NCBI GenBank assembly: GCA_021777475.1
Contig: JAJYDM010000011.1
Location: 1 to 41,910 of the forward strand
Reading direction: 5' to 3'
Source: Actinomycetes bacterium
GTDB taxonomy: Bacteria; Actinomycetota; Acidimicrobiia; Acidimicrobiales; Acidimicrobiaceae
Length of the DNA stretch: 41,910 bases
The notes beneath the pieces were generated by a model. It was not told where the DNA came from. It did no database searches and saw nothing but the letters and a program-made list of their open reading frames with translations. Position 1 is the first letter of the stretch; the number at the start of each line of letters is the position of its first letter. The position numbers and the translations under genes were made by a program. Below, piece after piece: positions 4,051 to 40,839 of this stretch.

Positions 4051-4051
4051 G

Positions 4052-4122
4052 AGCGGGCGACGAGAATCGAACTCGCGTTCTCAGCTTGGGAAGCTGATGT
4101 TCTGCCTCTGAACTACGCCCGC
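4052..4122 (-). tRNA. tRNA-Gly(CCC)
   Basis: Read on the minus strand, all arms fold. The acceptor GCGGGCG (4116-4122) pairs with CGCCCGC (4053-4059) and the discriminator is U. The anticodon stem TCAGC/GCTGA encloses the loop TTCCCAA, giving anticodon CCC, which reads GGG codons. The T arm contains GTTCGATTC. No CCA is encoded. The 71-nt gene starts 41 bases from the divergently oriented dcd start. Its 3' half serves as the attachment core duplicated at 81-128. The tRNA itself stays complete. Confidence 0.95.
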
Positions 4123-4730: not shown

Positions 4731-4888
4731 CCTGTCTGTAGCTGAAGAACTAGTACCAGAGCTGTATTGCTTGTCCTCGAATTGTGATAGTCGCCCGATT
4801 CCTGGCTAATGTAAGCTAATGCATTTTCATATTGGACCCGAGAGTAAATAAACATGGGTTTTGCCTACGATCAGCACTCGGTTTGCTA

Positions 4889-4903
4889 GGGAGGATTTCG
4901 TTG
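4889..4903 (+). promoter_or_regulatory. RBS deciding a TTG start
   Basis: GGGAGG at 4888-4893 lies seven bases before a TTG at 4901. The frame stays open further upstream to a TTG at 4832 that has no RBS. The 4901 start puts the first membrane helix at the very N-terminus, as usual in this family. Confidence 0.7.
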
Positions 4904-6931
4904 AGATTACTCATAGGTGTGGTCATTTTTGTAGTGGCTGCAGTGTTTGCAGGCAGGAGGCTCCTTTTCCTCTATGGCCTTATTTCATCTGGCAAGCCGT
5001 CCCCGGGAAGGACTGAAAACGTTGGTGGCCGGATTTGGGCCGAACTCTCCGAGGTCATTGGGCAGCGGAAGCTCCTAAAAAAGACCGTTCCCGGCATTGC
5101 GCATGCCCTGACCTTTTGGGGCTTCATTATTCTTCTCGCCACGATTATCGAGGCTTTTGGAGCGCTTTTCAGCTCCACGTTTGCGATCCCTTTGATTGGT
5201 CATGACTCCTGGCTGGGGTTTTTGGAGGATTTGTTCTCAGTTCTGATTCTCTTGTCTCTGGGCGTGTTCACGGTCTTGAGGATAAAGAATGCCCCGTCGC
5301 GCAGACAGAGGGAGTCAAGGTTCTACGGTTCGCACACCGGTGCGGCCTGGATTGTTTTGTTCGGCATCACGATGGTGATCATCACGCTGCTCCTTTACCG
5401 TGCCGCTCAGGTTAACCTCGGGCACTTTCCGTATGGCGGCGCCGCATTCGCGTCTCATGCAATAGCGTCTTGGATAAAGGGGTTTGGCACAACGGCCAAC
5501 AAGGTCATTGAGGTCACGTTCCTGGAACTCAACATAGCTGTGATCATGGGATTCCTTGTGTTCGTCACCTACTCCAAGCACCTGCACATCTTCACCGCGC
5601 CGCTGAACATCATATTTTCACGTCGCCCGAAGGCATTGGGGGCGCTTGGCAATACCCCAAACATGGATCCAGAGCAACTGAGCGAGGATGACGTTTTCGG
5701 TGTTGGGCAGATTGAGCACTTAACCTGGAAACAAAATCTCGATCTCGCAACTTGCACCGAGTGTGGAAGGTGTCAGGAGCAGTGTCCGGCCTGGAATACC
5801 GGTAAGCCGCTGTCGCCAAAGCTGCTCATTATGAATCTCCGTGACCACCTTTTCAAGTCCGCTCCATCTCTCATCGGACCCGGTGCGGCCAAGACCACTC
5901 AAGTCCCACTTGTTCCGGATGTGATCGATACCAATGTGCTCTGGTCCTGTACCACCTGCGGTGCCTGTGTAGAGGCCTGCCCGGTGGACATAGAACACAT
6001 TGACGTCATTGTCGATATGCGACGTTACAAAGTGCTGATGGACTCCGAATTCCCGACTGAGGCCAACTTGATGTTGAGGAACGTGGAGAATCAAGGCGAT
6101 CCTTGGGGTCTCGGTCAGTCCAAGAGGCTTGACTGGACCAAGAGTCTCGATTTTGAAGTCCCTGTTATCACGGGTGAGATTCCCGGAGATGTCGAGTACC
6201 TCTTCTGGGTGGGATGCGCTGGCGCACTGGATGAAAGAGCCGCAAAGACAACCCAGAGCGTGGCCAGGCTTCTCAATGCGGGCGGCGTCAAATTTGGTGT
6301 GCTTGGTCCCAAAGAGTCATGCACAGGCGACCCTGCCAGACGGTTGGGTAATGAGTACCTTTACCAGATGCAGGCAATGGCTAACATCGAGACGCTCAAT
6401 GGGGCCAAGGTGAAAAAGATCATCGCCTCTTGTCCTCATTGCGTCAATTCGTTGGCCAATGAGTACCCTTCCCTCGGCGGCAACTACGAGGTGATCCACC
6501 ATTCACAGGTTTTGGAAAGACTGGTATCTGAGAGAAAGCTTTTCCCGGTTACCCCCGTCAATGCCACGGTCACCTATCACGATCCCTGCTATCTAGGTAG
6601 GCACAACTCGGTCTACGATGAGCCACGGTCGGTTCTCAGTTCTGTGCCGGGCTTGAAGACCGTCGAAATGCACAAGCACCGCTCTAAGGGCTTTTGCTGT
6701 GGTGCTGGAGGATCACGTATGTGGCTGGAAGAAAACATTGGCAAGCGGGTAAATATGGAGCGGACCGACCAGGCGCTTGTCACTGGTGCGGACATGGTGT
6801 CGACGGCATGCCCCTATTGCATGATCATGCTTGATGACGGGGTAAAACAGCGGCAGGCGGAGGGCACAGCATCGGAAGAGATGAAGGTGATGGATGTCGC
6901 TCAGGTCTTGGAGAGGTCTTTGAGCGAATAG
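4901..6931 (+). CDS. etfD: Membrane Fe-S oxidoreductase, EtfD-like (HdrD/GlpC-type)
   Basis: The 676-residue protein couples a membrane domain to cytoplasmic iron-sulfur and CCG domains. Residues 1-250 contain about five or six hydrophobic helices of the nitrate-reductase-gamma/HdrE type. They are followed by two 4Fe-4S motifs, 'CTECGRCQEQCP' (from about 285) and 'CTTCGACVEACP' (from about 350). Two cysteine-rich CCG blocks include 'DPCYLGRH', 'GFCCGAGG' (about 597-604) and 'CPYC'. This layout matches mycobacterial EtfD (Rv0338c), which passes electrons from electron-transfer flavoprotein during fatty-acid oxidation to menaquinone. No etfAB lies in the window, so the partner is inferred. It is followed by a strong terminator hairpin. 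Confidence 0.85.
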   Translation: MRLLIGVVIFVVAAVFAGRRLLFLYGLISSGKPSPGRTENVGGRIWAELSEVIGQRKLLKKTVPGIAHALTFWGFIILLATIIEAFGALFSSTFAIPLIGHDSWLGFLEDLFSVLILLSLGVFTVLRIKNAPSRRQRESRFYGSHTGAAWIVLFGITMVIITLLLYRAAQVNLGHFPYGGAAFASHAIASWIKGFGTTANKVIEVTFLELNIAVIMGFLVFVTYSKHLHIFTAPLNIIFSRRPKALGALGNTPNMDPEQLSEDDVFGVGQIEHLTWKQNLDLATCTECGRCQEQCPAWNTGKPLSPKLLIMNLRDHLFKSAPSLIGPGAAKTTQVPLVPDVIDTNVLWSCTTCGACVEACPVDIEHIDVIVDMRRYKVLMDSEFPTEANLMLRNVENQGDPWGLGQSKRLDWTKSLDFEVPVITGEIPGDVEYLFWVGCAGALDERAAKTTQSVARLLNAGGVKFGVLGPKESCTGDPARRLGNEYLYQMQAMANIETLNGAKVKKIIASCPHCVNSLANEYPSLGGNYEVIHHSQVLERLVSERKLFPVTPVNATVTYHDPCYLGRHNSVYDEPRSVLSSVPGLKTVEMHKHRSKGFCCGAGGSRMWLEENIGKRVNMERTDQALVTGADMVSTACPYCMIMLDDGVKQRQAEGTASEEMKVMDVAQVLERSLSE

Positions 6932-36099: not shown

Positions 36100-37029
36100 C
36101 TAACCGTTGATGAATTCAAACCCGAAACGACCCTTGACGCATAGCATTCCATGAGTGACATCGTGATCAGAAGGTGAGGTCACCTTTACGATTCTGTTGT
36201 CCTGCTCGTGGATTTCCAGGTTGCAACCAACGCCGCAATATGGGCAGATTGTGCGGGTGATTGACTGTTTCGACTCGTCCCACCCGCCTACTTGGCGCAG
36301 GTCGTATTCAATCTTGGACATCAGAGCATTTGTGGGACAGACTGCGACACAGTTGCCACAATAGACACAGGCTGACTCGGGTAGAGCGACCCCAAACTCA
36401 GTTGTAATGTGAGCTTCAAATCCGCGCCCGCCAAGTGCGATCGCGAAGGTGTTTTGTGCATCGGTTCCGCAGGCTTCAACGCACCTGTAGCAAAGGACGC
36501 AGCGCGAATAGTCCCTCACATACTGGTTATTGTCCACCTTTGTTGGCTCTGCAACCGTCGCCGCCGAAGTCCCGTCGTTCTTGTGATGGTGCCCGGCACG
36601 GGTTTTCTCCCGACCCCCAATTTGGCCAGGGGCGGCCGGCGGTCCGAATCTTTCTTTGTCTACCTGGTATCGTTCCATCCAGCCGGCAAGTTCCGGAGAG
36701 ACGATGGACATGTCCACCGAGGAAGCAAGAAGTTCAAGCACCATCTTGCGGCTGTCGGACACTCTTTGGGACTCAGTTTGAATGACCATTCCGGATTCAA
36801 TCTTGCGAGAGCATGAAGGAACCAAAGTTCGCGAGCCCTCGACCTCCACCATGCATAGGCGGCAGGTGTTTACTGGCGTCAGGTTTTCGAGGTAGCAAAG
36901 AGTGGGTATGTCGATCCCATTGGTTCGACATGTTTGAAGGATGGTTGAACCCTCTGGCGCAGCGACTTCTTTACCATCTACCGTGATTTTTATCGATCTG
37001 CGGATTGCTAGCGCTATACCGTCATTCAT
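36100..37029 (-). CDS. Formate dehydrogenase alpha, N-terminal Fe-S fragment (split gene)
   Basis: The 309-residue product corresponds to the N-terminal third of a NAD-linked formate dehydrogenase alpha subunit. It has a [2Fe-2S] ferredoxin domain (Cys45, 56, 59, 73) and two 4Fe-4S sites (Cys177/180/183/187 and 221/224/227/231). The molybdopterin-enzyme 4Fe-4S motif 'CPYCGVGC' is present (Cys262/265/269 and 297). It ends 'KGRFGFEFING' exactly where the molybdenum domain would continue. The usual HxxxCxxC cluster block after the ferredoxin domain is replaced by 'LLASSVDMSIVSPELAGWMERY', so one cluster is missing. The rest of the protein is at 38896-40839, upstream in the same operon. Start ATG is ten bases after the previous stop. 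Confidence 0.85.
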   Translation of the reverse strand: MNDGIALAIRRSIKITVDGKEVAAPEGSTILQTCRTNGIDIPTLCYLENLTPVNTCRLCMVEVEGSRTLVPSCSRKIESGMVIQTESQRVSDSRKMVLELLASSVDMSIVSPELAGWMERYQVDKERFGPPAAPGQIGGREKTRAGHHHKNDGTSAATVAEPTKVDNNQYVRDYSRCVLCYRCVEACGTDAQNTFAIALGGRGFEAHITTEFGVALPESACVYCGNCVAVCPTNALMSKIEYDLRQVGGWDESKQSITRTICPYCGVGCNLEIHEQDNRIVKVTSPSDHDVTHGMLCVKGRFGFEFING

Positions 37030-37039
37030 TTTGAGTTCC

Positions 37040-38896
37040 CTATCCCCCTACGAGTCCAAGCCTGAAGGCAGATTCGACCGCGTTGGCGGCGGTTTGGCCG
37101 AGCCCACAGATCGACGACTCTCTCATCACCGTTGACACCTTCCCCAACAATGCGAGTTCGTCATTTCTACTGCCAATGGTGGTGCCATTGACAATTCTGG
37201 TGAGCAACTCCTCCAGACGTGCGGTGCCCACCCTGCAGGGCACGCACTGCCCGCATGATTCCTCACGGAAGAACTGTGCAATTCGTAGGACGACCTGGTC
37301 CATATCGGCGCCTTGGTCAAAAACCATGATTACCCCGGAGCCCAAGGTCACGCCTGCCGCGCGGACTCCCTCGAATGAGAGGCGAATGTCAAGCTGATCT
37401 GGCCCAACGAATGATCCAGCCGCACCACCCAACAGTATGGTCTTGAGAGACTTCCCGGTCGTGATGCCTCCAGCCATTTTGAGCAACTCTCCCAGCTGGA
37501 TGCCAAAAGGCGCTTCGTAAAGGCCCGGCTTGTTTACGCTTCCGGAAAGACAAAACAGCCTGGTTCCTGTGGAATCTGGAGTTCCAATTTGTGCAAATTC
37601 GGGTCCGCCGATTGACAGTATCTCTAGCACATTGATTAGAGTCTCCACGTTGTTGACACCCGTTGGCTTGTTGAACAAACCTGCCTGGGCGGGGAACGGG
37701 GGCTTGTTTCGTGGCTCGGCGCGCTTTCCCTCAATTGAGTTGAACAGAGCAGTCTCTTCTCCGGCGATATAGGCACCGGCTCCTCTGCGGACTTCAATGT
37801 CAAAATCAAAGCCGCGGCCCATGATGTCTCTTCCGAGCAGTCCCTTTTTCTTTGCCATTGAAACGGCGTTGGAGATTCTTTCTTCGCCCAATGGATATTC
37901 GCCGCGGATGTATATGTAGCCCTTTTCGCATCCAGTTGCAAAGCCTGCAACCGTGAGGCCTTCGACAATGGAAAACGGATCCTGTTCCATGATCACCCTG
38001 TCTTTGAAGGTGCCGGGTTCGGACTCGTCGGCATTGCAGACGAAGTAGTGGGGCCTGACGGAGTTCCCGGCAACGGATCCCCACTTGACAGCGGTTGGAA
38101 ATGCCGCTCCTCCCCGACCCATCAGCTTCGCGTCCTTTATCTCCCTAATGACGTTTTCAGGACCTATGTCAAGGGCTCTCCTAAGAGGCCCATAGCCTCC
38201 GTGGCTTCTGTAGGAGTCGATCGACAACGGATCAGTCACGCCAACCCTCTTCAGCAGCCTTAGGGACGACTGGTCGGTTTCCCTCTGCGGCACTCTTGCC
38301 GAGTCCGTGCCGATCCACTGGTCTGAAGGCCTACTTATTCCGTCTGAAAGAGAATTGGCATTGACCGGGGCGAGGAGTATCCGCCGATTCGCTTCCCCGG
38401 CCCTTTGAACCAGCGCGGCTGATCCCTCTTCGCAGCGGCCGAGACATGGGCTCCTTATCCACATGAGGCCGTTTACGTCGATGTCAGGCTGTCCGTACTC
38501 GTCGTTCATGAATGCCGCAGGGTCTGCATTCTTCGCGGCTCTGCAGGCAATGTCGTCGCAGACATGGATAACTGTTGCCGGGGCCTCTTCAAGAGAAAAC
38601 ATGGCGTAGAAGCTGGCCACTCCGTAAGTCTCTGCTGGTGGCACCCCGAGTTGAAGGCTGAGGTAGTCCAACGCCCCGTGGCTGATCCAGCCGATTCGTT
38701 CCTGGATCGCGTGGAGGGCAGGCAAAAGCAAGTCCCGCGGACCCATCTTGTTGTAAAACGGAATTTCATACGCAACGTGAGCACTCTTTCCGTTGGTCTC
38801 CACGACGCCACTTGGCTTCTCCAGTTGGGAAATTACGCTGTCTACAGCCTCCTTTTCCTTAGGGGAGGCCGGTCTGCCCGACGTTTTCAAATCCAT
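37040..38896 (-). CDS. Formate dehydrogenase NuoE/NuoF fusion (diaphorase) subunit
   Basis: The 618-residue protein transfers electrons to NAD+. Residues 40-175 are a NuoE-type domain with the [2Fe-2S] cysteines 113, 118, 151 and 155. Residues about 205-618 are NuoF. They include the FMN loop 'LMGRGGAAFPTAVKW', the NADH-site region 'NADESEPGTFKDR' and the 4Fe-4S ligands 'ESCGQCVPC' (548, 551, 554) plus Cys597. The fusion replaces the separate FdsG and FdsB of other bacteria. Its ATG overlaps the TAA of the catalytic gene by one base (TAATG), so coupling is likely. It sits between the two halves of the alpha subunit. Confidence 0.92.
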   Translation of the reverse strand: MDLKTSGRPASPKEKEAVDSVISQLEKPSGVVETNGKSAHVAYEIPFYNKMGPRDLLLPALHAIQERIGWISHGALDYLSLQLGVPPAETYGVASFYAMFSLEEAPATVIHVCDDIACRAAKNADPAAFMNDEYGQPDIDVNGLMWIRSPCLGRCEEGSAALVQRAGEANRRILLAPVNANSLSDGISRPSDQWIGTDSARVPQRETDQSSLRLLKRVGVTDPLSIDSYRSHGGYGPLRRALDIGPENVIREIKDAKLMGRGGAAFPTAVKWGSVAGNSVRPHYFVCNADESEPGTFKDRVIMEQDPFSIVEGLTVAGFATGCEKGYIYIRGEYPLGEERISNAVSMAKKKGLLGRDIMGRGFDFDIEVRRGAGAYIAGEETALFNSIEGKRAEPRNKPPFPAQAGLFNKPTGVNNVETLINVLEILSIGGPEFAQIGTPDSTGTRLFCLSGSVNKPGLYEAPFGIQLGELLKMAGGITTGKSLKTILLGGAAGSFVGPDQLDIRLSFEGVRAAGVTLGSGVIMVFDQGADMDQVVLRIAQFFREESCGQCVPCRVGTARLEELLTRIVNGTTIGSRNDELALLGKVSTVMRESSICGLGQTAANAVESAFRLGLVGG

Positions 38897-40839
38897 TATG
38901 TCAAAGCCTCCGCTCTTGATGAGGATTTCGCTTTGTCTTGTATGCCTGTAATCTTTTCAATTCTGATTGCTGTCGCCTTGAACTCAGCGGTTCCTGATTT
39001 TGGATCCCATGCGTCAATAGTCAGAGAATTTGTGTCGACTTCGTCGGGGAAGTGGAATGTCATGAACGCCAGTCCTGGCCTGAGAGTTGCGTCCTTCAGC
39101 ACCGGAGCGTGAATGGAGCCGCGCCTGGAAGTAACCGAGACTACCTCACCGTCTACAAGGCCAAATTTGTCCATGTCCTGCGGAGAGATGTTTAGTGTTT
39201 CCGGCTTGCGCAATGGCGACGTGAAGCCACCTGACTGGACACCGGTGTTGAACGAATCAAGCCGTCTCCCTGTGGTTAGCCGTATCGGAAACTCGTCACT
39301 CAAGGTGTCAAGGGCCGGTATGTGCTCTACGGGCGTAAACGGGGCCAGCGGTCCAACTACTGGATATTGCCAAAGTCTTCCGTGCAGGAATGGCGATCCG
39401 GGGTCGTTTTCGTCAAGACAAGGCCACTGGATCCCTCCCAGTTCCTCCAGTCTCTTGTAGCTCATCCCAGCATGTATCGGCGAGAGGCTTCGAAGCTCGT
39501 CCCAGACCTCCTCGGCAGTTGGGTGGCCCCAGTCATGACCGAGTCTCTTGGCGATGTCGCAAATGATCTCGATGTCATTTCTGGCCATCCCAGGAGGGTT
39601 CAGGGCCTTTCGCACCCTCTGAACGCGTCTTTCACTGGAGGTGACCGTGCCTTCAGCCTCAACCCAGTTTGCCGACGCTGGAAGTACCACAGTGGCAAGT
39701 TCAGCGGTCTTTGTCAAGAAGATATCTTGCACAACCAGGTGTTCGAGTCCCTGGAGAAGGCTGATGGCGTGACTGACATTGGCTTCCGACTGGGCCGGGT
39801 TCTCCCCGATCACGTAAAGGGTGCGCAACTCTCCCCGCTCCATGGCTTCAAACATCTGAGAAAGGTGCCACCCTCTCTTGGCTGGAATGCTCGTGCCCCA
39901 CCTGGCTTCGAATCTCAGGCGGGCCTTAGCATCGGTTTCGACGTCCTGGAAGCCCGGCAGCTTATTTGGAAGCGCACCCATATCACCGCCACCTTGGACG
40001 TTGTTCTGGCCTCTTAGAGGAACAATTCCGGACCCGTATCTGCCAACGTGGCCAGTTAGAAGGGCGAGATTGATTAGTGAGAATACGTTGTCGGTGCCGT
40101 TGTGGTGCTCGGTTATCCCAAGGGTCCAGCAGAGCTGGGCTCGGTCAGCCTTGGCGTAACTGTGTGCCAGCTTTCTTATTAGTTCGGCTGGAACGCCGGT
40201 TAATTTTTCCCCTTTTTCCAGAGTGAATGGTTCGACGGACTTGGCATACTCATCAAAACCCGAAGTGGATCGGTTGATGAATTCAGAATTTGCAAGTCCA
40301 GCTTGGATTATTTCCCGCGCAACCGTGTTCGCCAGTGCAATGTCTGTTCCAACGTCCAATCCGAGCCATGTGTCCGCCCACTGGGCCGACGTTGTCTTCC
40401 GCGGGTCAACCACGAAGAGCCTGGCTCCGTTGTGGATTCCTTTGAGCACGTGGTGGAAAAATATTGGGTGAGCCTCTCTGGCGTTGGAACCCCAAAGAAT
40501 AATAAGGTCGGTGTCTTCCGCCTCTTTGTACGAACTGGTGCCGCCACCCGCTCCAAACACTGTCGCCAGACCGACGACGCTGGGAGCATGTCAGGTGCGG
40601 TTACAACTGTCGATATTGTTGCTTCCAATGACGGATCGGATGAATTTTTGCGCAATGAAGTTCAGCTCGTTTGTTGCCTTTGAGCAACTGAATATGCCAA
40701 AGGAATTGGTTGCGCCCTGCTCAATTGCCCTTTGGAAACCTTTGGATGCAACGTCGAGTGCTTCATCCCAGGTCGCTGGTCGCAGCTTTCCCGATTCGCG
40801 AACGAGAGGCTCGGTTAGCCGACTGTAATGCTTTCCCAT
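38896..40839 (-). CDS. fdhA: Formate dehydrogenase catalytic fragment with selenocysteine
   Basis: The frame runs from ATG 40839 to 38896 with one internal UGA at 40591-40593, giving 647 residues if read as selenocysteine (residue 83). Context 'NNIDSCNRT-U-HAPSVVGLA' matches the Sec/Cys-His active site of formate dehydrogenases, and a SECIS hairpin follows. Downstream are the bis-MGD-binding domains ('GSNAREAHPIF', 'CWTLGITEHHNG', 'LRGQNNVQGGGDMG') and the C-terminal beta domain ('LTTGRRLDSFNTG'). The protein begins 'MGKHYSRLTEPLVRE', the point following the N-terminal Fe-S domain, which is encoded separately at 36100-37029. RBS-like GGTGGTGG precedes the ATG. It oxidises formate to CO2 in the cytoplasm. 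Confidence 0.88.
40562..40578 (-). promoter_or_regulatory. Bacterial SECIS element for fdhA
   Basis: Twelve bases after the UGA, the mRNA folds GUCG-U-C / GGUCUG / G-CGAC: a four-bp stem, a bulged U, one more pair and an apical GGUCU loop. The E. coli fdhF SECIS has the same spacing (11 bases), bulged U and GGUCU loop. This strongly supports selenocysteine insertion rather than termination. Confidence 0.85.

Follow-up and report, generated by a model that had tools for sequence, protein, structure and literature searches.

An alpha subunit made as two polypeptides, with electrons crossing the interface between them, is very probably part of a soluble NAD+-linked formate dehydrogenase (FDH) encoded on contig JAJYDM010000011.1 of assembly GCA_021777475.1 (Acidimicrobiaceae), from which a stretch of 41,910 nucleotides (nt; hereafter, the window) was analysed. 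Three genes on the minus strand make up the system (Table 1), in the order catalytic half, fusion of NuoE and NuoF (that is, NuoEF) and iron–sulfur (Fe–S) half. This order, proposed in a first-pass annotation of the window, is borne out by the gene coordinates; the positions given there for both alpha-subunit proteins also stand, with the minus strand, which had been left unstated, now added. The genes are tightly packed (the catalytic stop and NuoEF start share one base in TAATG, and a gap of 10 bases lies between the NuoEF stop and the Fe–S gene start), and the 647-amino-acid (aa) catalytic frame stays open only if an in-frame TGA (codon 83; motif NRT-U-HAP) is read as selenocysteine (Sec); under translation table 11, it breaks into a piece of 82 aa and a second frame, listed as 554 aa when counted from its first start. 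We regard the three-gene system as real, conserved and probably functional, and probably as a variant of a known enzyme, whereas its physical assembly, the use of NAD+ as acceptor, the metal and the direction of the reaction in the cell are what we infer from sequence.

The two halves are consecutive pieces of one alpha subunit, as first suggested from the sequence. In phmmer alignments to FdsA of Rhodobacter capsulatus (6tg9_A), residues 13–306 of the Fe–S chain cover positions 25–302 and residues 3–636 of the catalytic chain cover positions 304–940, the pieces meeting at 302/304 with zero overlap. The Fdh-alpha model TIGR01591 is divided in the same manner (positions 1–49 on the Fe–S chain and 50–672 on the catalytic chain) and, because it spans both chains, neither alone passes its cut-off of 666.25 bits (642.3 for the catalytic chain and 53.2 for the Fe–S chain). 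By Pfam, the catalytic chain contains PF00384 (residues 7–432) and PF01568 (520–623), and no Fe–S domain was found in the scan of this 647-aa protein; NuoEF comprises a thioredoxin-like 2Fe–2S domain (52–164), the FMN/NADH-binding 51K domain (253–424), SLBB and NADH_4Fe-4S (535–612); and the Fe–S chain carries Fer2, ferredoxin-like and Molybdop_Fe4S4 domains. The last of these is the part that is fused ahead of the catalytic domain in FdsA and, as had been noted, the 309-aa protein terminates with KGRFGFEFING directly after it. It had also been asked whether another complete alpha subunit might be the true partner of either half; when the genome containing the window (G000; 2.28 Mb, 139 contigs, 96% complete) was searched with the catalytic half, the sole full catalytic match was the query itself, and thus no second complete alpha subunit was found. 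Partial matches were confined to an 895-aa NuoG-like frame on C86 (37% identity to catalytic residues 272–468 and a weak piece), which the Fe–S half also matches, and a 950-aa frame on C31 (26% to residues 14–201).

The same three-gene order recurs widely, as the first-pass annotation had surmised for other actinobacteria. The Fe–S chain was searched against 40 relatives and 396 genomes drawn from the phylum, giving a best E value below 1e-60 in 41 of the 396; in 37 of these 41, a stop in the frame shortly past the Fe4S4 domain was confirmed (the confirmation covering all but G198, G229, G370 and G405). Within the genus, the Fe–S half was found in 7 of 8 other genomes, the exception (G007) being 69% complete. 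Among the matches listed (that is, the best 80 of 452 confirmed stretches) are Pseudonocardia, Amycolatopsis, Umezawaea, Kutzneria, Nonomuraea, Herbidospora, Streptosporangium and many Streptomyces, together with metagenome-assembled genomes (MAGs) labelled Acidobacteria, Chloroflexi, Gemmatimonadetes, Chthonomonas, Bacillota and others, and these labels outside Actinomycetota may include misbinned contigs. Of 127 loci read (with two records counted twice, L054/L176 and L060/L192), 117 have a separate Fe–S half and 10 a fused gene. A catalytic match with full-length genes was available at 115 loci, 92 of them split (each with a full-length catalytic gene inside the fetched stretch; 91 are distinct, as L060 and L192 are one record) and 23 not (17 called fused, 4 fused but mislabelled and 2 unclassified). 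In all 92, the order is catalytic, NuoEF, Fe–S, NuoE and NuoF share one open frame, and the Fe–S region and catalytic body lie in two genes rather than in one alpha polypeptide. Loci outside the 92 lie on cut contigs or have a catalytic gene that is partial, broken or absent (for example, L054, L059, L061, L077, L079, L085, L086, L094, L108, L120 and L126–L128). At fused loci in which NuoF was found, it mostly precedes the fused gene and follows it in L130, L225 and L226. The split arrangement is therefore a conserved group and not an oddity of the window's genome. A sequencing or assembly error, or a recent break of a normal fused alpha gene, is refuted by the census, and we put its probability close to nil: the NuoEF gene stands between the pieces, and the same arrangement occurs in 92 loci, of which 21 come from records that carry no MAG label.

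Two further candidates from the census were set aside. A second type of split with the canonical order (L215, L217, L225 and L226) proved to consist of fused genes with no stop between the parts, and frames of about 360 aa that resemble the Fe–S half in fused Sec-containing genes end at the Sec TGA and are joined across it. Viral contigs yielded 67 pattern matches, none confirmed as a relative, and every match in plasmid records was below 60% identity. Single frames seemingly in two pieces were seen for the catalytic gene of a Geodermatophilaceae MAG (L059:3154–5030) and NuoF of Streptomyces altiplanensis (L121:191–1508), each attributable to sequencing error or decay.

That the halves are made as separate chains, an earlier claim, is further shown in Halopolyspora algeriensis. 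Eight genomes in which the contig ended or no catalytic gene adjoined were searched for the catalytic half; it was found elsewhere in four (G431, which is H. algeriensis (L077), G433, G434 and G437) at 64–71% identity, a fifth (G432) has a 103-residue match at a contig end, and G435, G436 and G438 gave no catalytic match above 36%. In H. algeriensis, one 43.5-kb contig encodes both halves, on opposite strands and with about 14 kb between them; each has an open frame and they are therefore separate polypeptides, which excludes translational fusion or frameshifting in this organism. In G434, about 7 kb separates the catalytic half from NuoEF on the same strand; in G437, the catalytic half adjoins NuoEF and the Fe–S half is on another contig; and in G433, the catalytic and Fe–S halves are on different contigs, a separation that contig ends may explain in the latter two genomes. 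By eye, the stretch between the Halopolyspora halves (L258:913–18185) holds frames for a major facilitator superfamily (MFS) transporter, an acyl-CoA synthetase, a formyl-CoA-transferase-like and an oxalyl-CoA-decarboxylase-like protein, which suggests that the halves flank an oxalate-degradation-like cluster and that formate from oxalate could be the source of substrate.

Conservation of ligands and active-site residues is consistent with a complete electron path through the two chains (Table 1). The twelve [4Fe–4S] cysteines, the four 2Fe–2S cysteines and the lysine of the LC.KGRFG motif in the Fe–S half are kept in all 91 other split loci, as are Cys/Sec83, His84, Arg276 and Gln278 of the catalytic chain; we take Arg276 to be the catalytic arginine, and assign K299 its role, by analogy with relatives. 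At fused loci, the ligands of clusters A2 and A3 are complete in 19 of 21 and the lysine is present in 20 of 21. Judged by sequence ligands, the wire of clusters A1, A2, A3 and A5 is complete in the window system, and NADH_4Fe-4S and 51K domains are present in its NuoEF. Formate would be oxidised on the 647-aa chain, at a Mo (or W) bis-molybdopterin guanine dinucleotide (bis-MGD) centre together with Sec83, His84 and Arg276; the 309-aa chain, sitting between the catalytic chain and NuoEF, would provide the proximal [4Fe–4S] cluster and its lysine, two more [4Fe–4S] clusters and one [2Fe–2S] cluster; and NuoEF would carry flavin mononucleotide (FMN) and reduce NAD+. As the proximal cluster is on a separate chain from bis-MGD, electrons would have to pass across the chain interface from bis-MGD to the first Fe–S cluster, with both chains presumably assembling into one alpha subunit. 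The His-Cys3 motif of FdsA cluster A4 is found in 0 of 92 split loci versus 18 of 21 fused loci, with the same stretch searched in both. In the accessible part of the account of the R. capsulatus enzyme, A4 is placed at the dimer interface, off the path A1–A2–A3–A5–B6 (PMC7171172), and thus losing it would be expected to abolish the proposed connection between protomers without interrupting the wire.

The active-site codon is TGA in 70 of the 92 split loci and TGC or TGT (Cys) in the other 22. A GGTC in a hairpin loop 8–34 nt past the codon, which we take to be the SelB-binding loop, occurs in 68 of the 70 TGA loci (including the window's) and 2 of the 22 Cys loci, and a looser GGY loop in 68 of 70 versus 9 of 22. 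The folding energy of the window hairpin by itself is not unusual (z −0.76). The window gene thus has the features of a selenoprotein gene (that is, an in-frame UGA aligned with Cys in homologues and a hairpin like the selenocysteine insertion sequence (SECIS)), and G000 also encodes tRNA-Sec and FdhD.

Structure prediction gave the catalytic chain alone with confidence as an FDH body (AlphaFold2, alignment of 26 rows; mean predicted local distance difference test (pLDDT) 85.6). Residues 4–633 of the model superpose on FdsA (6tg9) 305–937 with Z 40.0 and a root-mean-square deviation (rmsd) of 2.3 over 619 aligned residues, and the model on FDH1 of Methylorubrum extorquens (8j83), a tied-best match, with Z 43.0 and rmsd 2.2 over 620.

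Several observations weigh against a dedicated two-chain enzyme of this kind. Two Streptomyces loci (L127 and L128) hold a lone Fe–S half, perhaps a relic or put to a new use, in genomes whose catalytic matches do not exceed 36%, and G438 (L085) has NuoEF and the Fe–S half without a catalytic half in the assembly. L061, L077, L079, L085 and L094 have NuoEF and the Fe–S half without an adjoining catalytic gene, several more loci are cut by contig ends, and the short contigs of L126 and L090 contain nothing of the system but the Fe–S half. Such loci, the non-adjacent catalytic gene in Halopolyspora and G434, and the resemblance of the Fe–S half to HoxU and HydA-type N-terminal regions would be expected if the Fe–S half and NuoEF formed a general NADH-linked hub for which the catalytic chain is one partner among others, or if the catalytic chain used another Fe–S protein. 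However, the Fe–S half ends in Molybdop_Fe4S4, which runs into the FDH body in relatives, a full catalytic half is present in 4 of the 8 searched genomes with a contig-end piece in a fifth, and the order is fixed in the 92 loci in which the genes adjoin; we therefore consider a general hub unlikely. At one further locus, in a congener (L170; G001:C117), the contig is cut upstream and a partial catalytic-like match lies downstream of the Fe–S half, possibly another molybdopterin oxidoreductase.

Also unfavourable is the failure to find selA or selB in the G000 and G002 assemblies. SelB-family matches in G000 were below the cut-off and were taken as EF-Tu and EF-G by eye, and the remainder, by frame length only, as other translation GTPases. 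If the Sec machinery were indeed missing, TGA would act as a stop in the window strain and the catalytic gene would be dead or truncated. Against this stand the tRNA-Sec gene of G000, the occurrence of TGA at the Cys position of 70 split loci (of which 68, the window's among them, have the SECIS-like loop), the presence of selA and selB, adjacent according to their coordinates, in 7 of 8 congeners, and the fragmented, incomplete state of the G000 assembly itself. Given that TGA and the loop are kept in both G000 and G002, an assembly gap is likelier than loss, and a dead catalytic gene is, in our estimation, very unlikely, more so than the general hub.

The remaining reservations about the two-chain enzyme concern models and selection. 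The model of the Fe–S half is mediocre (pLDDT 69.3, 31 rows), with residues 184–226 and the C terminus uncertain. Foldseek places it on FdsA (6tg9) at rank 3 (template modelling score 0.54 on the query, 300 columns, rmsd 6.7) and also on HydA and NuoG chains, and in a second structural comparison the 50 rows listed were chains of NfnA, [FeFe]-hydrogenase, complex I and bifurcating enzymes, with no FdsA chain among them. Predictions were of single chains. Nonsynonymous divergence (dN) from congeners is 0.04–0.18; a synonymous value (dS) was obtained in 4 of 11 comparisons, two of them near saturation and none involving the catalytic half. In favour of the enzyme, dN/dS compared with G005 is 0.116 for the Fe–S half and 0.167 for NuoEF (dS 0.36 and 0.26); the near-saturated values are 0.046 for the Fe–S half against G002 (dS 2.94) and 0.055 for NuoEF against G008 (dS 2.75). 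The catalytic half has an identity of 0.856–0.865 to three congeners.

M. extorquens FDH1 has a fused NuoE–NuoF beta subunit, and in FwdB of formylmethanofuran dehydrogenase it is the C-terminal domain, not the Fe–S domain, that lies on another chain. Unlike in the window system, the alpha subunit of FDH1 is one chain (913 and 911 residues listed for 7vw6 and 8j83); FwdB (5t5i), a pterin enzyme of the same superfamily, has a short catalytic chain (432 aa). HoxU-type proteins (NF005745) and the HydA-type N-terminal region resemble the Fe–S half in bearing a 2Fe–2S and two 4Fe–4S clusters on a small chain beside NuoEF, but the Fe–S half scores 142 of 333 bits with NF005745, below the cut-off, and has the extra molybdopterin Fe4S4 domain. 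In R. capsulatus FdsABG, as far as the accessible part of its description goes, the bis-MGD body, clusters A1, A2, A3 and A5, and the NuoF and NuoE partners all have counterparts here (PMC7171172); it has one alpha chain whereas the window system has two, and it retains the His-Cys3 cluster A4, which is lacking in the window system, in which NuoE and NuoF are fused.

The closest documented system appears to be FDH3 of Actinomycetospora chiangmaiensis DSM 45062. According to the accessible part of the report (PMC7176365), its subunits FdhA3, FdhB3 and FdhC3 have 640, 614 and 316 aa, Sec is located in FdhA3, the authors call the enzyme cytoplasmic and NAD+-dependent, and all three proteins were detected by proteomics at 2.2- to 3.1-fold higher levels on 2-hydroxyisobutyrate than on acetone. 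Without selenite, formate accumulates, yet the strain has two further Sec-containing FDHs (PMC7176365) and, because these share the dependence, it is not specific to FDH3. Judged by subunit sizes and description only, FDH3 matches the window operon, and we suggest that this operon type has probably already been documented and expressed under that name; in the same part of the report, FdhA3 is treated as the alpha subunit and the Fe–S domain on the other chain is undiscussed (PMC7176365). A split of the alpha subunit is not described in the accessible parts of PMC13397495, PMC7171172, PMC7117926, PMC7176365, PMC7325909, PMC2702500 and PMC3543383, a scope that mostly excludes figures and supplements. 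A Chloroflexi MAG with fdhA beside nuoG, hoxF and hoxE, as given in the accessible part of PMC7117926, may represent the same operon type.

Phylogenies place the split rows together on one side of a branch in all three trees, with Shimodaira–Hasegawa-like approximate likelihood ratio test (SH-aLRT) support of 100 for the catalytic half (43 split and 19 other rows), 99 for the Fe–S half (43 and 17) and 96 for NuoEF (43 and 14). The trees come from short searches without bootstrap (LG+C20 for the catalytic half), are rooted for drawing only and have long branches flagged; the catalytic tree samples 43 of the 92 split and 19 of the 23 other rows (L218, L219, L223 and L228 being dropped as short or distant), and L230 and L234 among the 19 are FdhF-like with an unclassified Fe–S part. 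The gene order of the split group is a circular permutation of NuoE–NuoF–FdhA(FeS-cat) or of FdhA–NuoE–NuoF, an order that would result from a hypothetical tandem duplication in which the outer parts were later lost. Molybdop_Fe4S4 precedes the catalytic body in the superfamily and, given this layout and the fused rows in the present dataset, the fused state is taken as ancestral.

Some C-terminal tails of the Fe–S half (for example, LPDPMTTPIDEVLAAAR) resemble the start of the catalytic domain by eye. In a first shuffle run (12 tails, 1000 shuffles each), the values were 1 for L198, 24 for L200, 27 for L184 and 58 for L206, with L066, L072, L075 and L208 at 194–569 and the four other tails at 476–849; in a second run (scripted heads, without the L129 head), L206 gave 64, the other seven 272–820 and the four others 427–711. 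The tails as a remnant of duplication are thus unsupported by both runs. Five of the eight tails (L066, L072, L184, L198 and L200) form one group in the catalytic tree. Apart from these tails, decayed-looking fragments of a second Fe–S half were seen in G000 (L147:4791–5126, on C51, the matching place being 87796–88071) and similarly in a congener (L148:3921–4166; G005:C104), each comprising the ferredoxin end and Fe4S4 domain with several cluster cysteines gone and an MFS-transporter-like gene nearby.

In the fused relatives compared, the bis-MGD chain itself contains the proximal cluster and lysine, covalently joined to the catalytic body; the split group offers a natural two-piece system in which one could test how tightly the molybdopterin and first cluster must be held together, the order of cofactor insertion, and swaps of FDH bodies on the diaphorase for CO2 reduction. 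A bolder idea, which we consider doubtful, though less so than the general hub, is that the catalytic chain is an Fe–S-free module that docks reversibly on an Fe–S/NuoEF adaptor owning the proximal cluster; if so, the halves could be regulated separately, for which the Halopolyspora layout leaves room, and a single NADH hub could accept different catalytic modules in turn. There is also a gain for annotation, as the Fe–S gene alone resembles a NuoG or HoxU fragment and the catalytic gene alone an alpha subunit minus its first domain.

Table 1 Features of the split formate dehydrogenase in the window and at related loci; cysteines are allotted to clusters by alignment and known motifs.
Feature	Location	Strand	Remark
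Catalytic half	38896..40839	minus	647-aa bis-MGD formate dehydrogenase chain
NuoE–NuoF fusion	37040..38896	minus	618 aa
Fe–S half	36100..37029	minus	309 aa, ends just past the proximal [4Fe–4S] domain
In-frame TGA	40591..40593	minus	codon 83, read as selenocysteine
Bacterial SECIS-like hairpin	40550..40587	minus	3′ of the TGA; apical loop GGTCT 40572–40568
Molybdop_Fe4S4 (PF04879)	36106..36261	minus	Fe–S half residues 257–308
2Fe–2S ligands, Fe–S half	C45, C56, C59, C73		
Ligands of two 4Fe–4S clusters, Fe–S half	C177, C180, C183, C187, C221, C224, C227, C231		
Proximal 4Fe–4S ligands, Fe–S half	C262, C265, C269, C297		conserved K299
Halopolyspora algeriensis catalytic half	L258:913–2985	minus	Sec TGA between
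Halopolyspora algeriensis NuoEF	L258:15277–17217	plus	
Halopolyspora algeriensis Fe–S half	L258, to 18182	plus	
Lone Fe–S half, Streptomyces	L127:7001–7822		neither NuoEF nor catalytic half in the fetched stretch
Lone Fe–S half, Streptomyces	L128:7016–7615		neither NuoEF nor catalytic half in the fetched stretch

Outside the operon, the window contains a 699-aa frame (4832–6931) with two cysteine-rich CCG stretches and a 4Fe–4S dicluster domain, a tRNA-Gly (CCC) gene at 4051–4122 on the minus strand and, by Pfam, genes for HSP70, a Clp ATPase, an AIRS-domain (purL-like) protein, a glutamine amidotransferase-phosphoribosyltransferase and a 2-oxoacid dehydrogenase E1.

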